Origin: Campylobacteraceae bacterium
GTDB taxonomy: Bacteria > Campylobacterota > Campylobacteria > Campylobacterales > Sulfurovaceae
Direction: 5' to 3'
Assembly: GCA_027038295.1 (NCBI GenBank)
Contig: JALVXD010000166.1
Location: 1 to 37,658 of the forward strand
Length of the DNA: 37,658 nucleotides
In this document: positions 8,047 through 33,475 of the stretch, one piece after another
Position numbering within the stretch: the stretch's first letter is position 1
Layout of the letters: the number at the start of each line of letters is the position of its first letter
Made by a program: the position numbers and the translations under genes
The notes under the pieces: model-generated
Told to the model about the DNA's origin: nothing
Database searches by the model: none
Seen by the model: only the letters and a program-made list of their open reading frames with translations

Positions 8047-8982
8047 TTATTTTTTAACCAAACTCCAAGTCAAAGAGCTGCTGTCCCACTTAGCACTGTA
8101 GTGATTTCTCTCACTCCCCTCGGAGGTTTGGGCTATAAGTGTATATGAGAAAGGAATGGTCTGTAGCTCAAGCAAGTTTTGACCACGTACGTTAATTTTA
8201 CGAATATGCTCTTGTGCAGATGGAAGTTCTAAAATTCTCTCTGCATTTTTAGACAATGTTTTATTCTCTATGGCATAAGCATACAGAGCATTCTCTCTAG
8301 CTGACCCAGCCAATAAAAACTTACCCTTTTCACTTTTGAGTAGCGTAATGGTTAAAGCATCAAACCCCTCTACACGTTGAAGCACTCTTTTACTTTTCAC
8401 ATCCACATGGTAAATGACACCCTTTTGGCTTTTATAGTCACTCTCATCTATAGCAGAAACCCATAAAGTTTGGTCATCACAATCATAAACCAAAGAGATA
8501 ATCCCATAAGGGTTAGAAGCACTTGGGTGAACATCATCAAAGTTCATCCAAATATCTAACTTACCTGTTTTACTGTCAAGTTTGTAGATATTTTTTTGCA
8601 GATTAAAAGTAGTAGATTTTATGGAGATAAATGGCATAGGAGCCAAGTAGACATTTCCTACCTCATCTAAGGCATAGGTAGAAAAATGCTCATACGTCTC
8701 CCAAGCCTTTGGGTGAATAACTTTTGAGAAGTTCTTCCCCCATAAAAATGCCAAGCCTTTAAACTGCTGTTGAGAGAGGTCTATGGTAATGGGTTGTGTT
8801 ACCTTTAACTGCTTTAAAAACTCTGGGTGTCTTGCACAGCTTTTTTGTTTGTTGAAATTTCCTATGGTGAATTTTTCTTCTGTTTTATGTTTTGTTTTTT
8901 GGTTGTTTTTTTTGTTTATTACAACAAATGCTATACCTGCTACTACTAGAAGCGATATTATAATTGGTAGATATTTTCTCAT
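8047..8982 (-). CDS. Membrane-anchored, predicted beta-propeller protein of unknown function
   Basis: This 311-residue protein has one N-terminal membrane segment or uncleaved signal (about residues 4-23), followed by a Lys-rich stretch. The remainder has repeated strand-turn patterns such as YALDEVGNVYLAP, IYKLDSKTGKLDIWM, LWVSAIDESD and VIYHVDVKSKRVL. These resemble blades of an NHL/SMP-30-like propeller, which I infer from pattern only. No catalytic motif is visible. The ATG is preceded by an AAGGAA ribosome-binding site. It lies downstream of the amine-oxidase-like gene, separated by a paired-hairpin repeat, so cotranscription is possible but not shown. The propeller-like region of the giant repeat protein next door may be related. 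Confidence 0.5.
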   Translation of the reverse strand: MRKYLPIIISLLVVAGIAFVVINKKNNQKTKHKTEEKFTIGNFNKQKSCARHPEFLKQLKVTQPITIDLSQQQFKGLAFLWGKNFSKVIHPKAWETYEHFSTYALDEVGNVYLAPMPFISIKSTTFNLQKNIYKLDSKTGKLDIWMNFDDVHPSASNPYGIISLVYDCDDQTLWVSAIDESDYKSQKGVIYHVDVKSKRVLQRVEGFDALTITLLKSEKGKFLLAGSARENALYAYAIENKTLSKNAERILELPSAQEHIRKINVRGQNLLELQTIPFSYTLIAQTSEGSERNHYSAKWDSSSLTWSLVKK

Positions 8983-9010
8983 TTTTTTCCTTAATTTTTA
9001 TATAAAATCC

Positions 9011-9116
9011 GTAGGTGTGACCATGTCACACGTCTAATCTCGATTTATACTTTATGGTTATTTCAAATACAAAATTATGCCATTTTTATTTTGACGTTTG
9101 ACATGGTCAAACCTAC
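9011..9116. repeat. Paired-hairpin REP doublet (copy A)
   Basis: This 106-base element begins GTAGG and ends CCTAC. The left arm folds as GTGTGAC-cat-GTCACAC and the right arm as GTTTGAC-atg-GTCAAAC. The arms differ at one position and its pairing partner, so each stem stays perfect. The inner sequence shares the linker TTTGACG with copy E. The arrangement fits REP-type hairpins with a GTAG foot in inverted orientation. It fills the gap between the genes at 9148 and 8982. Confidence 0.8.
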
Positions 9117-9147
9117 GCTATTTTTAACATAAATTCAATCCAAATTT

Positions 9148-11013
9148 TTATTTTATCGGTACAAATTTTGGACCAACTATACATGGGAATGTTCTTACTT
9201 CAATATTACCATTACTATCAATCACCGTATCAGCCCAACAATACTCATGCCCTGCTCGTGCATCGTTTTTAATGCGTGGTACATACCAAAGCACAATATT
9301 TTCACCATCAATAGACTCATTTTTAGAGACATAACGTTCTACTCCATCTTCTTCTAGGTTACAACAAGAACCAAGAGTAAGTAGGTCTTTGTCTCCTTCA
9401 CCCTCTTTGAACTTTGTTACAAAAAGTGTAGCATTGTCACCTCTGCTGTCATCATGAAACTGTCCACGATTTGGCTCGATGTAGTAACCTTTTTTCTCAT
9501 TTTTATCAGTAACCTTGTAGAGGTATCTGTTTTGGTCATACACCTTTGCATCTTTTTGAAAGTCACTCTGCTCTGTAAGCCACTTTTTCCAAGAGCCATC
9601 ATACTTATAAAAGTTCTCTTTATCAGAAAACGCCATATCCATACGCATCACAGGTCTATAGATAGCATTCTCTCCACAACCTCTACCCTTGTTTACACCC
9701 ACTACCCTAAATGAGCCATCATCAAAAAACTCAAAACGGTTCTCATAACGGTAGTTACACGCCATCGGCCATTTTGGGTTACGGAAATCTTGTGTTAGGT
9801 AAAAACCTACTTTTTGCTTCTGCTCATCATAAAGCTCTTTTACCAAAGGACCATTAAAAGGAAGTACCACAGAGGTTGAGAACATAGGGCAACCCATGGC
9901 ATCGTTGTAACCAAAGAAGAACTTACCCTCATCTCCTTTTACAAACTCAACTTGACGACCTGCCATCACCACATCACCAGACGCATCAGCTTCACCTTTA
10001 CCCTCATAAGCTACATGCCAGTCTACTATTTTTGCCGTACTTAAAACCTTTTGACCTTTAAACTCTACGTTTATAATTTCTAAACCATCTGAACCTGTGA
10101 GCCTATAGTCTAACGTCCAACCGTTCTTCTCTAAGTGCGTATCTTTCTCGCAAAAGTTTTTCATAATGTAACGATTTTGAAGTGAACGCTCTGAGATACA
10201 AGCAGGAGTTGTAGTCTTACCCAGCCCAGCCCATTTGGCTGCTGCTAAAGTCATCTCGGTTAGGTCAACTATTGCCCAAAGAGCTTGTTCATTTTTATGG
10301 TCAGAAAAGGTAGGAGCCACACAGAGGTGTTCAGAGTTTTGACAAGGTGAGCCTTGTAATGCACCACGTACATTTGCCATGCTCATATCTTGTCTTCTTG
10401 GTGTTCTCTTTAATTCTTTAGCCACTTCAGGGGCATTAAGTGCAATGGCTTGGGCGATATGCGTTAAACGTAACGAGATATCTGGTTGCATTCCTGCATG
10501 GTTTGTAACCTCTAGCACCTTTTTATTATCTATATCGACTACAGCTCTTGTTGTTGTATTGGTTACATAGTTGTACTTTTCAGCTTGGTAGCACTTATGC
10601 GTTTCACAAATGGTTTTAGATGAATCTGACAACACAGAGACGATAGCAGGACGAATACGCATCATGTCGTTATGCAGAGGTTTTCCATTTCGTATGGTAT
10701 CTTTTAAAAATGCTTTATTTTTAAGTAGAATTTTTTGTGCCAATACTCCACTACTATCAAGCTCTGAATCATCTAAAGGTAAAACAGCTTGACCACTTTG
10801 TATAACTTTTTTTAAATCTTTTAAATACTCTTTAACTTCAGGAATATCACCATATGTCTTTGTAGAATACTGTGGCAATATAATTCTTTCTTCAACTCTT
10901 TTATGAGGAGATAGACTCTTAGAATCATTCCCTTCCACCATAAACCAATAGGTCACTAACACTACTAAACCAACCGATAAAATACCCATACTAATCTTTA
11001 TTTCATTACTCAA
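9148..11013 (-). CDS. Membrane-anchored copper-amine-oxidase-fold-like protein, probably without the copper site
   Basis: This 621-residue protein has an N-terminal membrane segment (about residues 7-26). Residues 141-206 (CYQAEKYNYV...QPDI...APEVAKEL) resemble the small N3 domain of copper amine oxidases. Residues 305-470 resemble the start of the catalytic domain: VEFKGQKVL, then FFFGYNDAMGCP, then CNYRYENRFEFFDDGSF. In that family the Tyr of N-Y-x-Y becomes the TPQ cofactor; here it would be Tyr421. The family's HxH copper ligands before R-x-D are replaced: Ala450 and Tyr452 precede R457-M-D459. So either the enzyme is inactive or it uses other chemistry. It starts 3 bases after the RnfD-like gene stop, indicating cotranscription. 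The fold call comes from motif reading and needs a profile search. Confidence 0.5.
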   Translation of the reverse strand: MSNEIKISMGILSVGLVVLVTYWFMVEGNDSKSLSPHKRVEERIILPQYSTKTYGDIPEVKEYLKDLKKVIQSGQAVLPLDDSELDSSGVLAQKILLKNKAFLKDTIRNGKPLHNDMMRIRPAIVSVLSDSSKTICETHKCYQAEKYNYVTNTTTRAVVDIDNKKVLEVTNHAGMQPDISLRLTHIAQAIALNAPEVAKELKRTPRRQDMSMANVRGALQGSPCQNSEHLCVAPTFSDHKNEQALWAIVDLTEMTLAAAKWAGLGKTTTPACISERSLQNRYIMKNFCEKDTHLEKNGWTLDYRLTGSDGLEIINVEFKGQKVLSTAKIVDWHVAYEGKGEADASGDVVMAGRQVEFVKGDEGKFFFGYNDAMGCPMFSTSVVLPFNGPLVKELYDEQKQKVGFYLTQDFRNPKWPMACNYRYENRFEFFDDGSFRVVGVNKGRGCGENAIYRPVMRMDMAFSDKENFYKYDGSWKKWLTEQSDFQKDAKVYDQNRYLYKVTDKNEKKGYYIEPNRGQFHDDSRGDNATLFVTKFKEGEGDKDLLTLGSCCNLEEDGVERYVSKNESIDGENIVLWYVPRIKNDARAGHEYCWADTVIDSNGNIEVRTFPCIVGPKFVPIK

Positions 11014-11016
11014 AAG

Positions 11017-11883
11017 CTAACCTTCCATCTCAAAATAATAAGGAGTCTGCATCTCTATAACGGTTAGAGTTGCTATTGCAAAAAAGAGTATAATCACTGT
11101 GAGCTTTAAAAGAGGCACTCTGTCGCTATTGAACTTTAACAGATTCACAAATATAGAGAAGAAAAATACCGACATAAACAGATGCTGGACTCTAAAACCA
11201 TAAAATCTATCAAGCAGAGTTGACATTAACGCAACCACCAAAGCAAAACCTATCTGCTCGTACCATTTTGTTGGTGTCACAGGTGGGTCGGTAAGCATAA
11301 AATATATAAACAAAATAAATGTAACAGAGTAGAGACGGTGATAAATATCTTCAAAAAGCGTTACAGGGTCATAGCCAACGATTAAGTAATATTGGAAAAA
11401 AAGATAAAAGAGTATAAATGCCAAAGGGATAATCCAACGATTGACACGAATAAGTATAATGATGGCTACCACAGAGACAACAAGAGACAACCATAACTCA
11501 TCACCAAATTGACCAGTAATTATATGTGCATCTTTATAAAAAAAGAGCAGAGCCATAATCAGTGCAAAATTAGAGGGGTTAAAAAACTGCTTACCTTTAA
11601 ACGTAAGAAAATGTTTTTGAGCCAAACCCAAGGTTATCACTAAAAAATATATCCAAAGATGAGGTGAGTACATAAGGACAATCACCCCTATGGCTGTAGA
11701 AAAACTAGAATAAGAAAAATAAAACTCTCTACGCTTATTAAAATAGAGAAAAAGATGCTCTATAAAAACTGTAAAAGTTAAAATGGCAACAATCTCTACC
11801 CAACCCAAGTAGATATGTGCCATAAAACTTCCAACAACTAGAAGAAGAAAAAGATTAATATTCTGATGTAGCTGTATAGGCAA
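11017..11883 (-). CDS. RnfD/NqrB/UnbU-like integral membrane protein
   Basis: This 288-residue protein has about eight or nine membrane segments. KQFFNPSNFAL (about residues 98-108) and FMLTDPPVTP (about residues 196-205) match conserved loops of the NQR2/RnfD family, whose members carry flavin in ion-translocating electron transfer; the UnbU branch is similar. I do not see the S-x-G-A-T flavinylation motif of NqrB and RnfD, so covalent FMN is doubtful. No other rnf or nqr gene is nearby. The TTG start is supported by GGGGAG 8 bases upstream. It lies 5 bases past the M23 peptidase stop and 3 bases before the amine-oxidase-like gene, so the three may form one transcript. Confidence 0.65.
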   Translation of the reverse strand: MPIQLHQNINLFLLLVVGSFMAHIYLGWVEIVAILTFTVFIEHLFLYFNKRREFYFSYSSFSTAIGVIVLMYSPHLWIYFLVITLGLAQKHFLTFKGKQFFNPSNFALIMALLFFYKDAHIITGQFGDELWLSLVVSVVAIIILIRVNRWIIPLAFILFYLFFQYYLIVGYDPVTLFEDIYHRLYSVTFILFIYFMLTDPPVTPTKWYEQIGFALVVALMSTLLDRFYGFRVQHLFMSVFFFSIFVNLLKFNSDRVPLLKLTVIILFFAIATLTVIEMQTPYYFEMEG

Positions 11884-30452: not shown

Positions 30453-30977
30453 ATGATACTAAAATACAAAGAGTGGACACCAATACTAAAAAAAGGTGCA
30501 TGGGTAGCAGAAGGCTCAACGGTTATAGGACGAACAGAGATGGGTGAAGACTCTGCTGTATGGTTTGGCTGTGTGGTTCGAGGTGATGTACATCACATTA
30601 AAATAGGTGATAGAGCTAACATTCAAGACCTCTCCATGGTTCATGTAACTCATCATAAAAAAGAAGATATGTCCGATGGAAACCCAACCATTATAGGTAA
30701 TGATGTAACCGTAGGTCATAGAGTTATGTTGCACGGTTGTACCATAGAAGATGCCTGTCTTATAGGGATGTCAGCTACTATTTTAGATGGTGCTGTTATA
30801 GGGAAAGAGTCTATCGTGGGTGCTAGTTCTTTGGTGACTAAGAATAAAGTCTTTCCACCACGAAGCCTTATTATGGGAAGTCCTGCAAAGAGAGTAAGAG
30901 AATTAACTGATGATGAAGTTAAAGAGTTATATGCTTCTGCTGCTCGTTATGTGGAGTTTAAAAATACCTATCTGTAG
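30453..30977 (+). CDS. Gamma-class carbonic anhydrase-like hexapeptide protein
   Basis: This 174-residue left-handed beta-helix protein has hexapeptide repeats (e.g. STVIGRTEMGEDSAVWFGCV, IGDRANIQDLSMVHVTHH). The metal-binding His residues are in HVTHH and GHRVMLHGC. The family (YrdA/CaiE-like) includes true gamma carbonic anhydrases and inactive relatives. It begins 1 base after ppk1. Its stop TAG is the initial TAG of REP copy E. Whether it hydrates CO2 cannot be told from sequence. Confidence 0.85.
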   Translation: MILKYKEWTPILKKGAWVAEGSTVIGRTEMGEDSAVWFGCVVRGDVHHIKIGDRANIQDLSMVHVTHHKKEDMSDGNPTIIGNDVTVGHRVMLHGCTIEDACLIGMSATILDGAVIGKESIVGASSLVTKNKVFPPRSLIMGSPAKRVRELTDDEVKELYASAARYVEFKNTYL

Positions 30978-31080
30978 GTTTGACCATGTCAAACGTCAAA
31001 ATTAAATAAGCATAAATAATTGCTTGGAACAATCATAAAATATGAACCGAAATTTGACGTTTGGCACGGCACAAACCTAC
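30974..31080. repeat. Paired-hairpin REP doublet (copy E)
   Basis: A 107-base element from GTAGG to CCTAC. The left arm GTTTGAC-cat-GTCAAAC is perfect; the right arm, read on the minus strand, is GTTTGTGCCGTGCCAAAC and only its outer 5 pairs match. The linkers CGTCAAAATTAAAT and TTTGACG recur in copies A and B. It gives the stop codon of the preceding gene. Confidence 0.8.
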
Positions 31081-31103
31081 GAAAAAATAAATAAAGGAAT
31101 CCA

Positions 31104-31756: not shown

Positions 31757-33475
31757 TTACTTTACAACCACTACAGAGACATTGAGTCCTGCTGTATCTA
31801 AAATATCGACATTAATATTACCCTTAATATTTTCTCCCACCTTATAATAGTAGTTTGACTTAGGTGAAACTTGACCCATAGTAGTATGAATAATAGGAGC
31901 AGGATTATAATTAAAAAAGTTAATAGACCCTAAATCGTACTGAATATTATTAAAACTACTAGAGATATAATCACCAGCATTATATAACTCTCCACTATCT
32001 ACAGAGATATCATCTCTTTTACTGAGTAAAACTGCCACACCCCAGTCATGAATAAGGTCATCAAATGTTTTAGATTTACCATTAGCATCTTTATGAATAG
32101 CATCCATAAGTGCTTCTTCATTTATAAATTCACTATGAACAATATCATGTAAAAGTTTGGCTCCACCATAATTACGCATTAAGTAAGCTCCAAAAGAAGA
32201 CACTGTTGAATAGTTTTCTAAAGTATTGTCCCAAGATTTAGGACTTAATGTATTGTTTTTATTAAAAAGAGGATACCTACCATTATGATTGTTTTTATTA
32301 CCAGTATCACCTCTAGTTGATACTACATTTCTAGGTCCATCTACACCCATCTTTACAGCAACTAAATCTTCAGTTGACTCAGACAACATCTCATTTATCC
32401 AAGTATCTGTTCCCTGAATACCTTGTTTTACATTTTTTTGATAAAAATAGATCATATGTTGAAACTCATGTGCCAATGTTGAGAAAACCTGTTGAGGCCA
32501 AAAATCATTTTCATCCCAGCTACTTGTTGTTGAATTGGCATACATAACAGAGTCTATATAAAACATAATACGTTCATTTGAACCACTATAGAGATTGTTG
32601 TTAAAGTTATCTTTGGAGTAAAAATAACCTATAACTCCTCCACTGGCTTTGTTGTCTTGTGAAATATCTGTTAAAAGTATACTTATATGGTTTGATTCAT
32701 CAATTAATGATGAAGAAGTTGGTACACCCCACTCTTCGCCAAAAACATTTGTTACCCAGTCGTAAATATCATTATCATAGCCACTTTTTAAAAACTTATT
32801 TGCTAAAGTAGCAATCATGTTATCGTTAACACATTTAACTTTTTTACAATTTTCTCCATAAGCATCATCTTCTACCCAAATGGTTAAACTTTTAGCTCCA
32901 AATTGTGTTTGAACATTTGAAATAACTTTTCTAGCTGTTGCATTTACTTCTCTGTTTTTGGAAGTAGCATCCATATAAAATACTTTTTTCTCACCTTGAG
33001 TATCAGAAACAGTTTTATATGTTTTTCTTAGGTTTACATCTTCTTTTTTATCATTTTTAAAATCAAATAATTGGTTATTGAAATCTTGTATAAAACTTAA
33101 TTCTTGTTTATCTTGATGGTTGAGAGTCTTTAGTTTAAACTCTTTTTTATTGGTATTAACAGTTTCTACTCTTTTATTGTTATGTGTAACTGTTGCAGCG
33201 TGAGCAACTGAATTTGGATTTGAAAAAAGAACATAAACATCTTTCGCTTCATCGCCTAAGTTAAGTTGTAAATTTTTGTCTCCATCTAACTTTAAAACTT
33301 TATAATTATCTGATGATGCATCCATTACTGCATCAATGGAGACACCAGCAACAGCTGTTTGGGTAGCGTCTAAATTTGATTTACTAGTTGATGAATCTGA
33401 TGCAACACTTCCACAACCTATAAACATCCATAAAGAAATTGATAACGTTACCATTATTCTACTATTTAATTTCAT
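31757..33475 (-). CDS. Secreted lipoprotein zinc metallopeptidase, M30 (hyicolysin)-like
   Basis: This 572-residue protein has a lipobox (WMFIGC) giving a lipidated Cys near residue 21 and a Ser/Thr-rich linker. A beta-rich N-terminal part (DKNLQLNLGDEAKDVYVLFS) resembles a bacterial prepeptidase Ig-like module. The peptidase part has STLAHEFQHMIYFYQ, an HExxH zinc motif, followed by WINEMLSESTEDLVA supplying the third ligand Glu. This arrangement fits the M30/hyicolysin group. It probably works at the cell surface or in the periplasm. It is divergent from the lytic transglycosylase gene. Confidence 0.8.
   Translation of the reverse strand: MKLNSRIMVTLSISLWMFIGCGSVASDSSTSKSNLDATQTAVAGVSIDAVMDASSDNYKVLKLDGDKNLQLNLGDEAKDVYVLFSNPNSVAHAATVTHNNKRVETVNTNKKEFKLKTLNHQDKQELSFIQDFNNQLFDFKNDKKEDVNLRKTYKTVSDTQGEKKVFYMDATSKNREVNATARKVISNVQTQFGAKSLTIWVEDDAYGENCKKVKCVNDNMIATLANKFLKSGYDNDIYDWVTNVFGEEWGVPTSSSLIDESNHISILLTDISQDNKASGGVIGYFYSKDNFNNNLYSGSNERIMFYIDSVMYANSTTSSWDENDFWPQQVFSTLAHEFQHMIYFYQKNVKQGIQGTDTWINEMLSESTEDLVAVKMGVDGPRNVVSTRGDTGNKNNHNGRYPLFNKNNTLSPKSWDNTLENYSTVSSFGAYLMRNYGGAKLLHDIVHSEFINEEALMDAIHKDANGKSKTFDDLIHDWGVAVLLSKRDDISVDSGELYNAGDYISSSFNNIQYDLGSINFFNYNPAPIIHTTMGQVSPKSNYYYKVGENIKGNINVDILDTAGLNVSVVVVK

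Follow-up and report, generated by a model that had tools for sequence, protein, structure and literature searches.

Amine-oxidase-fold proteins without copper ligands, encoded with RnfD-like and probable propeller proteins: a candidate redox module of the cell envelope

Results

Genes at the locus

The window, by which we mean the whole 37,658-nucleotide stretch of DNA analysed here, is from contig C166 of a Sulfurovum-like assembly (G000; 2.8 Mb, 96.6% complete). Three intact open reading frames, all on the minus strand, form the module under study. In order of transcription they encode a 288-aa membrane protein resembling RnfD (11883-11017), a 621-aa protein with an N-terminal membrane anchor that resembles copper amine oxidases (CAOs; 11013-9148), and a 311-aa, N-terminally anchored protein that is probably a beta-propeller (8982-8047). 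The first two genes lie 3 bp apart, as an earlier sequence-only reading of the region had stated, and the second and third 165 bp apart; this gene order is kept across dozens of species. That reading also named the three parts correctly, although the evidence for the propeller is weaker than for the other two. Downstream of the propeller gene, likewise on the minus strand, follow a giant SdrD_B repeat surface protein of 2279 aa with a C-terminal membrane anchor (7873-1034), which often but not always stands beside the module, and an OmpA-like beta-barrel of 237 aa (845-132), which goes with the giant protein. The upstream genes (an M23 peptidase, a DHH-family phosphoesterase and a nadC-like gene) adjoin the module only in closer relatives and were not counted as part of it.

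The window also holds two copies (9008-9125 and 30970-31088) of a MITE- or REP-like element of about 115 bp with inverted terminal arms (GTAGGTTTGACCATGTCAAACGTCAAAAT; two exact copies versus none expected), one of which occupies the gap between the CAO-like and propeller genes. This element was not found in 216 of 218 loci, the remaining two being loci that contain this very place. A 572-aa relative of Peptidase M30 is encoded at 31757-33475 (Pfam 3e-22).

An RnfD-like membrane protein

By itself, the RnfD-like protein of the window has no Pfam match. Among its orthologues 23 of 28 match PF03116 (NQR2_RnfD_RnfE; best 4.5e-12), the family profile finds RnfD in the PDB (1e-3), and the AF2 model (pLDDT 87) resembles RnfD (TM 0.69, E = 3e-5) and also NqrB. 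Thus the protein, as modelled, has the RnfD/NqrB fold, and the three lines of comparison bear out its initial assignment.

The loop that bears the FMN-linked threonine, Thr187 in E. coli RsxD, is absent from all 30 RnfD-like proteins aligned with RsxD. A search for the flavin transferase gene ApbE found it in two relatives (G011 and G021), but not in G000, G025, G034 or G051, the last of which is a complete, single-contig genome. The cluster gene is the sole PF03116 match in G025, G011, G021 and G051; in G034 the single match is likewise an RnfD-like gene of this family, though not linked to the CAO-like gene. Because the loop is missing, ApbE was not found in G000, and the complete G051 has neither ApbE nor a second RnfD, ApbE-type flavinylation is unlikely in the window lineage; so is membership of an Rnf or Nqr complex, no partner subunits being encoded in the cluster. 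The sequence-only reading had remarked on this lack of rnf and nqr partners, which holds, and had raised flavinylation, against which these results speak.

A copper amine oxidase fold without copper ligands

The CAO-like protein of the window matches PF01179 at 5.6e-6, slightly short of the curated threshold; of 40 orthologues, 38 match it at E <= 0.01. When its AF2 model (pLDDT 82, pTM 0.63) was compared with the PDB by Foldseek, the amine oxidases of Arthrobacter (AGAO), E. coli (TynA) and Hansenula (HPAO) were returned along the whole chain (best E = 1e-20); the global TM to CAOs is only 0.4, because the domains are placed differently. On this model the 621-aa protein carries the copper amine oxidase fold, and its first description as amine-oxidase-like is upheld by the Pfam and structural matches.

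Alignment with TynA alone by hhalign covered only the C-terminal part, and intermediates were therefore aligned jointly with six canonical CAOs. In this alignment all three copper-binding histidines are gone from every copper-free member: the HxH pair, whose absence had already been noted, and the third histidine as well. In the window protein the region A450-I451-Y452 replaces HxH, and N583 replaces the third ligand. The CAO consensus around the tyrosine precursor of topaquinone (TPQ) is T-x-x-N-Y-[DE] (PMC3382800); the copper-free branch departs from it, having lost the threonine and the acidic residue, the latter being replaced mostly by arginine. The corresponding stretch of the window protein reads C419-N420-Y421-R422-Y423, and the position of the catalytic base is D371, assigned via the Y-x-D motif, as MAFFT sets this residue a few columns off. 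Among 70 copper-free sequences, Tyr421 is kept in all, Asp371 in 69 and the asparagine before the tyrosine in 58; Trp415, Trp576 and Tyr452 are likewise kept in 70 of 70. Twelve cysteines are invariant in the inner family of 40 sequences, and covariation resolved no pairs between them, as losses of cysteine are too few.

In a maximum-likelihood tree the copper-free branch is split from canonical CAOs by a long branch (3.17 changes per column, 100/100), and the Sulfurovaceae clade stands beside two Anaerolineae loci, L068 and L070 (96/92). A very divergent copy in G044 (L155:7952-9712) has lost several of the invariant cysteines and Asp371, and its genome has no RnfD-like or propeller matches; this copy is perhaps decaying after the loss of its partners.

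Propeller and surface-protein neighbours

The third protein matches the NCBIfam YncE family (1.1e-5), and its profile matches the YncE structure 3vgz (1.7e-3), in both cases over part of the chain only; from these profiles it is probably a propeller.

A giant SdrD_B gene lies within the fetched stretch of 19 loci, with examples from Campylobacterota, Betaproteobacteria (L077, L078) and Anaerolineae (L068, L071, L074, L122), and is absent from 15 others that extend at least 2.5 kb past the propeller gene. In the closest relatives (L025, L026, L029) there is no giant and the barrel gene follows straight after the propeller. Conversely, G000 encodes further giant SdrD_B proteins away from any CAO-like gene, one of them followed by a barrel of similar kind. 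The link between the module and the giant protein is real, then, but not obligatory. The window giant contains about 13 B-like repeats, and its C-terminal tail is of the form C-x-C...TM-RKE. Similar sequences stand at the end or the start of paralogues on contigs C172, C186 and C48, suggesting that these proteins share a sorting signal.

Distribution and co-inheritance

We recovered 59 loci from genome collections. The copper-free branch is seen in Campylobacterota, Chloroflexota and Betaproteobacteria, and the most constant core is the pair of CAO-like and propeller genes. An RnfD-like gene joins this pair in Campylobacterota and in some metagenome-assembled genomes labelled as Gammaproteobacteria or other groups, which may be binning errors; in Chloroflexota and Betaproteobacteria the pair occurs without it, and four genomes of the Anaerolineae class and the Betaproteobacterial family that have the copper-free family yielded no RnfD-like relative. 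That family is present in 26 of 199 sampled genomes from the class of the Anaerolineae locus and in four of 64 from the Betaproteobacterial family. No relatives of the locus were found on plasmids.

Across 100 relatives of the window genome, CAO-like genes (23 genomes) and RnfD-like genes (24) share 21 genomes (P = 2e-16, Fisher's exact test), as do CAO-like and propeller genes (23 each; P = 3e-17), and the coupling within the genus alone gives 1e-7, all of these values being inflated by the relatedness of the genomes. In two of the exceptions (G002, G038) the RnfD-like gene stands at the end of a contig. G034 and G053 retain an RnfD-like gene although it lies apart from the CAO-like gene, amid unrelated genes. 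These results show that the three genes are conserved and inherited together as an envelope module, the RnfD-like and amine-oxidase-like pair being neighbours in many genomes.

Haem proteins in relatives

One Anaerolineae clade (L068, L069, L070, L074, L125) has a di-haem CCP/MauG gene after the propeller gene; a second Chloroflexota clade, distant from the first, has such a gene beside the module in a different arrangement (L129, L130, L133, L138). MauG and CCP types are taken together here, and di-haem relatives of MauG may equally be plain peroxidases. As the adjacent gene is the only PF03150 gene found in each of four genomes (G361, G481, G504, G553), chance adjacency is very unlikely; it is one of two in G572 and one of three in G509. 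In G362 the CCP/MauG gene lies about 10 kb off, past a giant SdrD_B gene. The CAO-like protein itself is also linked to haem: three Betaproteobacterial members have an inserted CxxCH motif, and those Chloroflexota members that are most distant end in a cytochrome c domain. The cytochrome c-tailed proteins of L142-L147, L149 and L150 carry C-C-Y-R-Y instead of C-N-Y-R-Y.

In the window lineage no haem or MauG gene was found in the cluster, and the two CCP/MauG-family genes of G000 are located elsewhere. On contig C186 of G000 (L214:4159-7791) a di-haem CCP/MauG-family gene is divergent from another SdrD_B gene and lies close to a radical-SAM gene and c-type cytochrome genes.

Discussion

Proposed function

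Taken together, the three genes appear to encode a so far undescribed redox unit in the cell envelope. We tentatively favour, at close to an even chance, a periplasmic redox module linked to haem or quinone that uses a copper-independent cofactor or residue. The reasons are the CAO fold, with Tyr421 and Asp371 retained almost without exception in the absence of the copper histidines; the RnfD/NqrB fold of the membrane protein, and the co-occurrence of the three genes even where they are unlinked; and the adjacent MauG/CCP genes of two Chloroflexota clades, together with the CxxCH insertions and cytochrome c fusions. An electron-transfer role, which the sequence-only reading had suggested alongside a sensor and a cofactor carrier, is thus supported by the relatives, whereas the window cluster itself is devoid of haem and MauG genes.

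As for mechanism, we infer redox activity of the site, a protein-derived cofactor, acceptance of electrons by the RnfD-like protein and, as substrate, either an amine or a surface protein. The CAO-fold protein would oxidise a periplasmic substrate, either a small amine-like molecule or side chains on the neighbouring giant SdrD_B protein, at its copper-independent site, possibly by means of a protein-derived quinone that a MauG-type di-haem enzyme would build in place of copper-dependent self-processing. Electrons would pass to a membrane or haem partner and not to O2: in Chloroflexota and Betaproteobacteria to a fused, inserted or neighbouring c-type haem, and in Sulfurovaceae through the RnfD-fold protein to the quinone pool. 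The propeller may serve as a docking or substrate-presenting partner. A bolder proposal, which we regard as improbable, is that this branch makes a tyrosine- or otherwise protein-derived cofactor without copper (in Chloroflexota with a MauG-type di-haem enzyme) and has haem or a stand-alone RnfD-fold protein, instead of O2, as its electron acceptor; its members would then be quinoprotein dehydrogenases of a new class, whose substrates may be giant surface proteins.

A redox function is weakened by the absence of haem and MauG genes from the window cluster, by the lack of a covalent FMN site in the RnfD-like protein, by the replacement of the NY[DE] acidic residue, mostly by arginine, and by the low global similarity to CAOs (TM 0.4). 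Moreover, Tyr421 may be structural, given that Trp415, Trp576 and Tyr452 are equally invariant.

The main rival is that of a pseudoenzyme: with catalysis lost, the CAO-fold and propeller proteins would be a cysteine-rich periplasmic scaffold or chaperone that helps to assemble, anchor or sort giant SdrD_B proteins, and the RnfD-fold protein a membrane platform. We consider this rather unlikely, though it is favoured by the loss of every copper ligand, the 12 invariant cysteines of the inner family, the giant genes that adjoin the module in three phyla, and the fusion of distant CAO-like members to Big, CarboxypepD_reg and dockerin-type domains. It does not lead one to expect haem fusions, MauG neighbours, an RnfD fold or the retention of Asp371 and Tyr421; nor does it fit readily with the 15 loci that have sufficient downstream sequence and no giant, or with giants that exist without the module.

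It is very doubtful that the module is a periplasmic sensor, in which a ligand bound by the CAO-like and propeller proteins would trigger signalling through the RnfD-like protein. The proteins are membrane-anchored with binding-type domains, and response-regulator-like genes (cluster C9) lie near a few loci (L030, L043, L048, L075, L078); however, kinase, chemotaxis and regulator genes are not conserved with the module, and some relatives have no RnfD-like protein at all. Least probable is that the RnfD-like protein is a channel for ammonia or amines which the CAO-like protein produces or binds: although the fold resembles Rh/Amt and urea channels, and Foldseek places RhAG, UT-B and RhCG (probability 0.90-0.98) behind RnfD/NqrB, these matches are weaker than that to RnfD (E = 0.1-0.6, TM 0.46-0.52), sequence profiles return only RnfD, and the RnfD-like alignment has a single invariant histidine, H234, in place of a channel-like pair.

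CAOs provide the textbook example of enzymes that make their own cofactor in a copper-driven reaction. A branch that has dropped copper and kept the position of the precursor tyrosine offers a natural experiment on how a cofactor site may be used or built without the metal. The branch is widespread and recurs with haem proteins or with an RnfD-fold membrane protein, and a stand-alone RnfD-fold protein thereby gains a defined periplasmic partner.

Comparison with known systems

The sequence-only reading knew of no described system with these three parts, and we found none in the open-licence papers searched, among which no paper combines an amine oxidase, RnfD and a propeller and nothing relevant turned up on such a system or on UnbU; two flavinylation surveys that cover RnfD/NqrB-like units make no mention of amine oxidases. 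What appears to be new is a copper-free branch of the CAO fold with new partners.

The probable propeller has weak profile similarity to seven-bladed propellers of the YncE type and differs from them in its membrane anchor and in the linkage of its gene to a CAO-like gene. The RnfD-like protein shares the membrane fold and the FNP and TDP motifs of RnfD/NqrB (PF03116), but is devoid of the FMN-threonine loop and of Rnf/Nqr partners, with no ApbE in G000 or G051.

MauG builds the tryptophan tryptophylquinone cofactor of methylamine dehydrogenase, as cited in PMC4831470 and PMC6405878. The Chloroflexota loci resemble such MauG-dependent quinoproteins (compare also quinohaemoprotein amine dehydrogenase) in having a MauG/CCP gene beside a candidate quinoprotein and a propeller; the CAO fold, however, replaces the methylamine dehydrogenase light chain, the cofactor is a candidate only, and the window cluster is without a MauG gene.

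Compared with CAOs themselves (PF01179; AGAO, TynA), the CAO-like protein has the overall fold, the position of the precursor tyrosine, usually the preceding asparagine, and the aspartate of the catalytic base, at about 16% identity to TynA; it differs in having neither copper ligands nor NY[DE], and in its many extra cysteines, membrane anchor and new gene partners. Flavinylated NQR/RNF-like systems likewise combine a small NqrB/RnfD-like membrane unit, also without a covalent FMN site, with an extracytosolic partner (PMC8238504, PMC11334425), but the window module has no NAD-binding domain or FMN-bind subunit, and its partner has the CAO fold.
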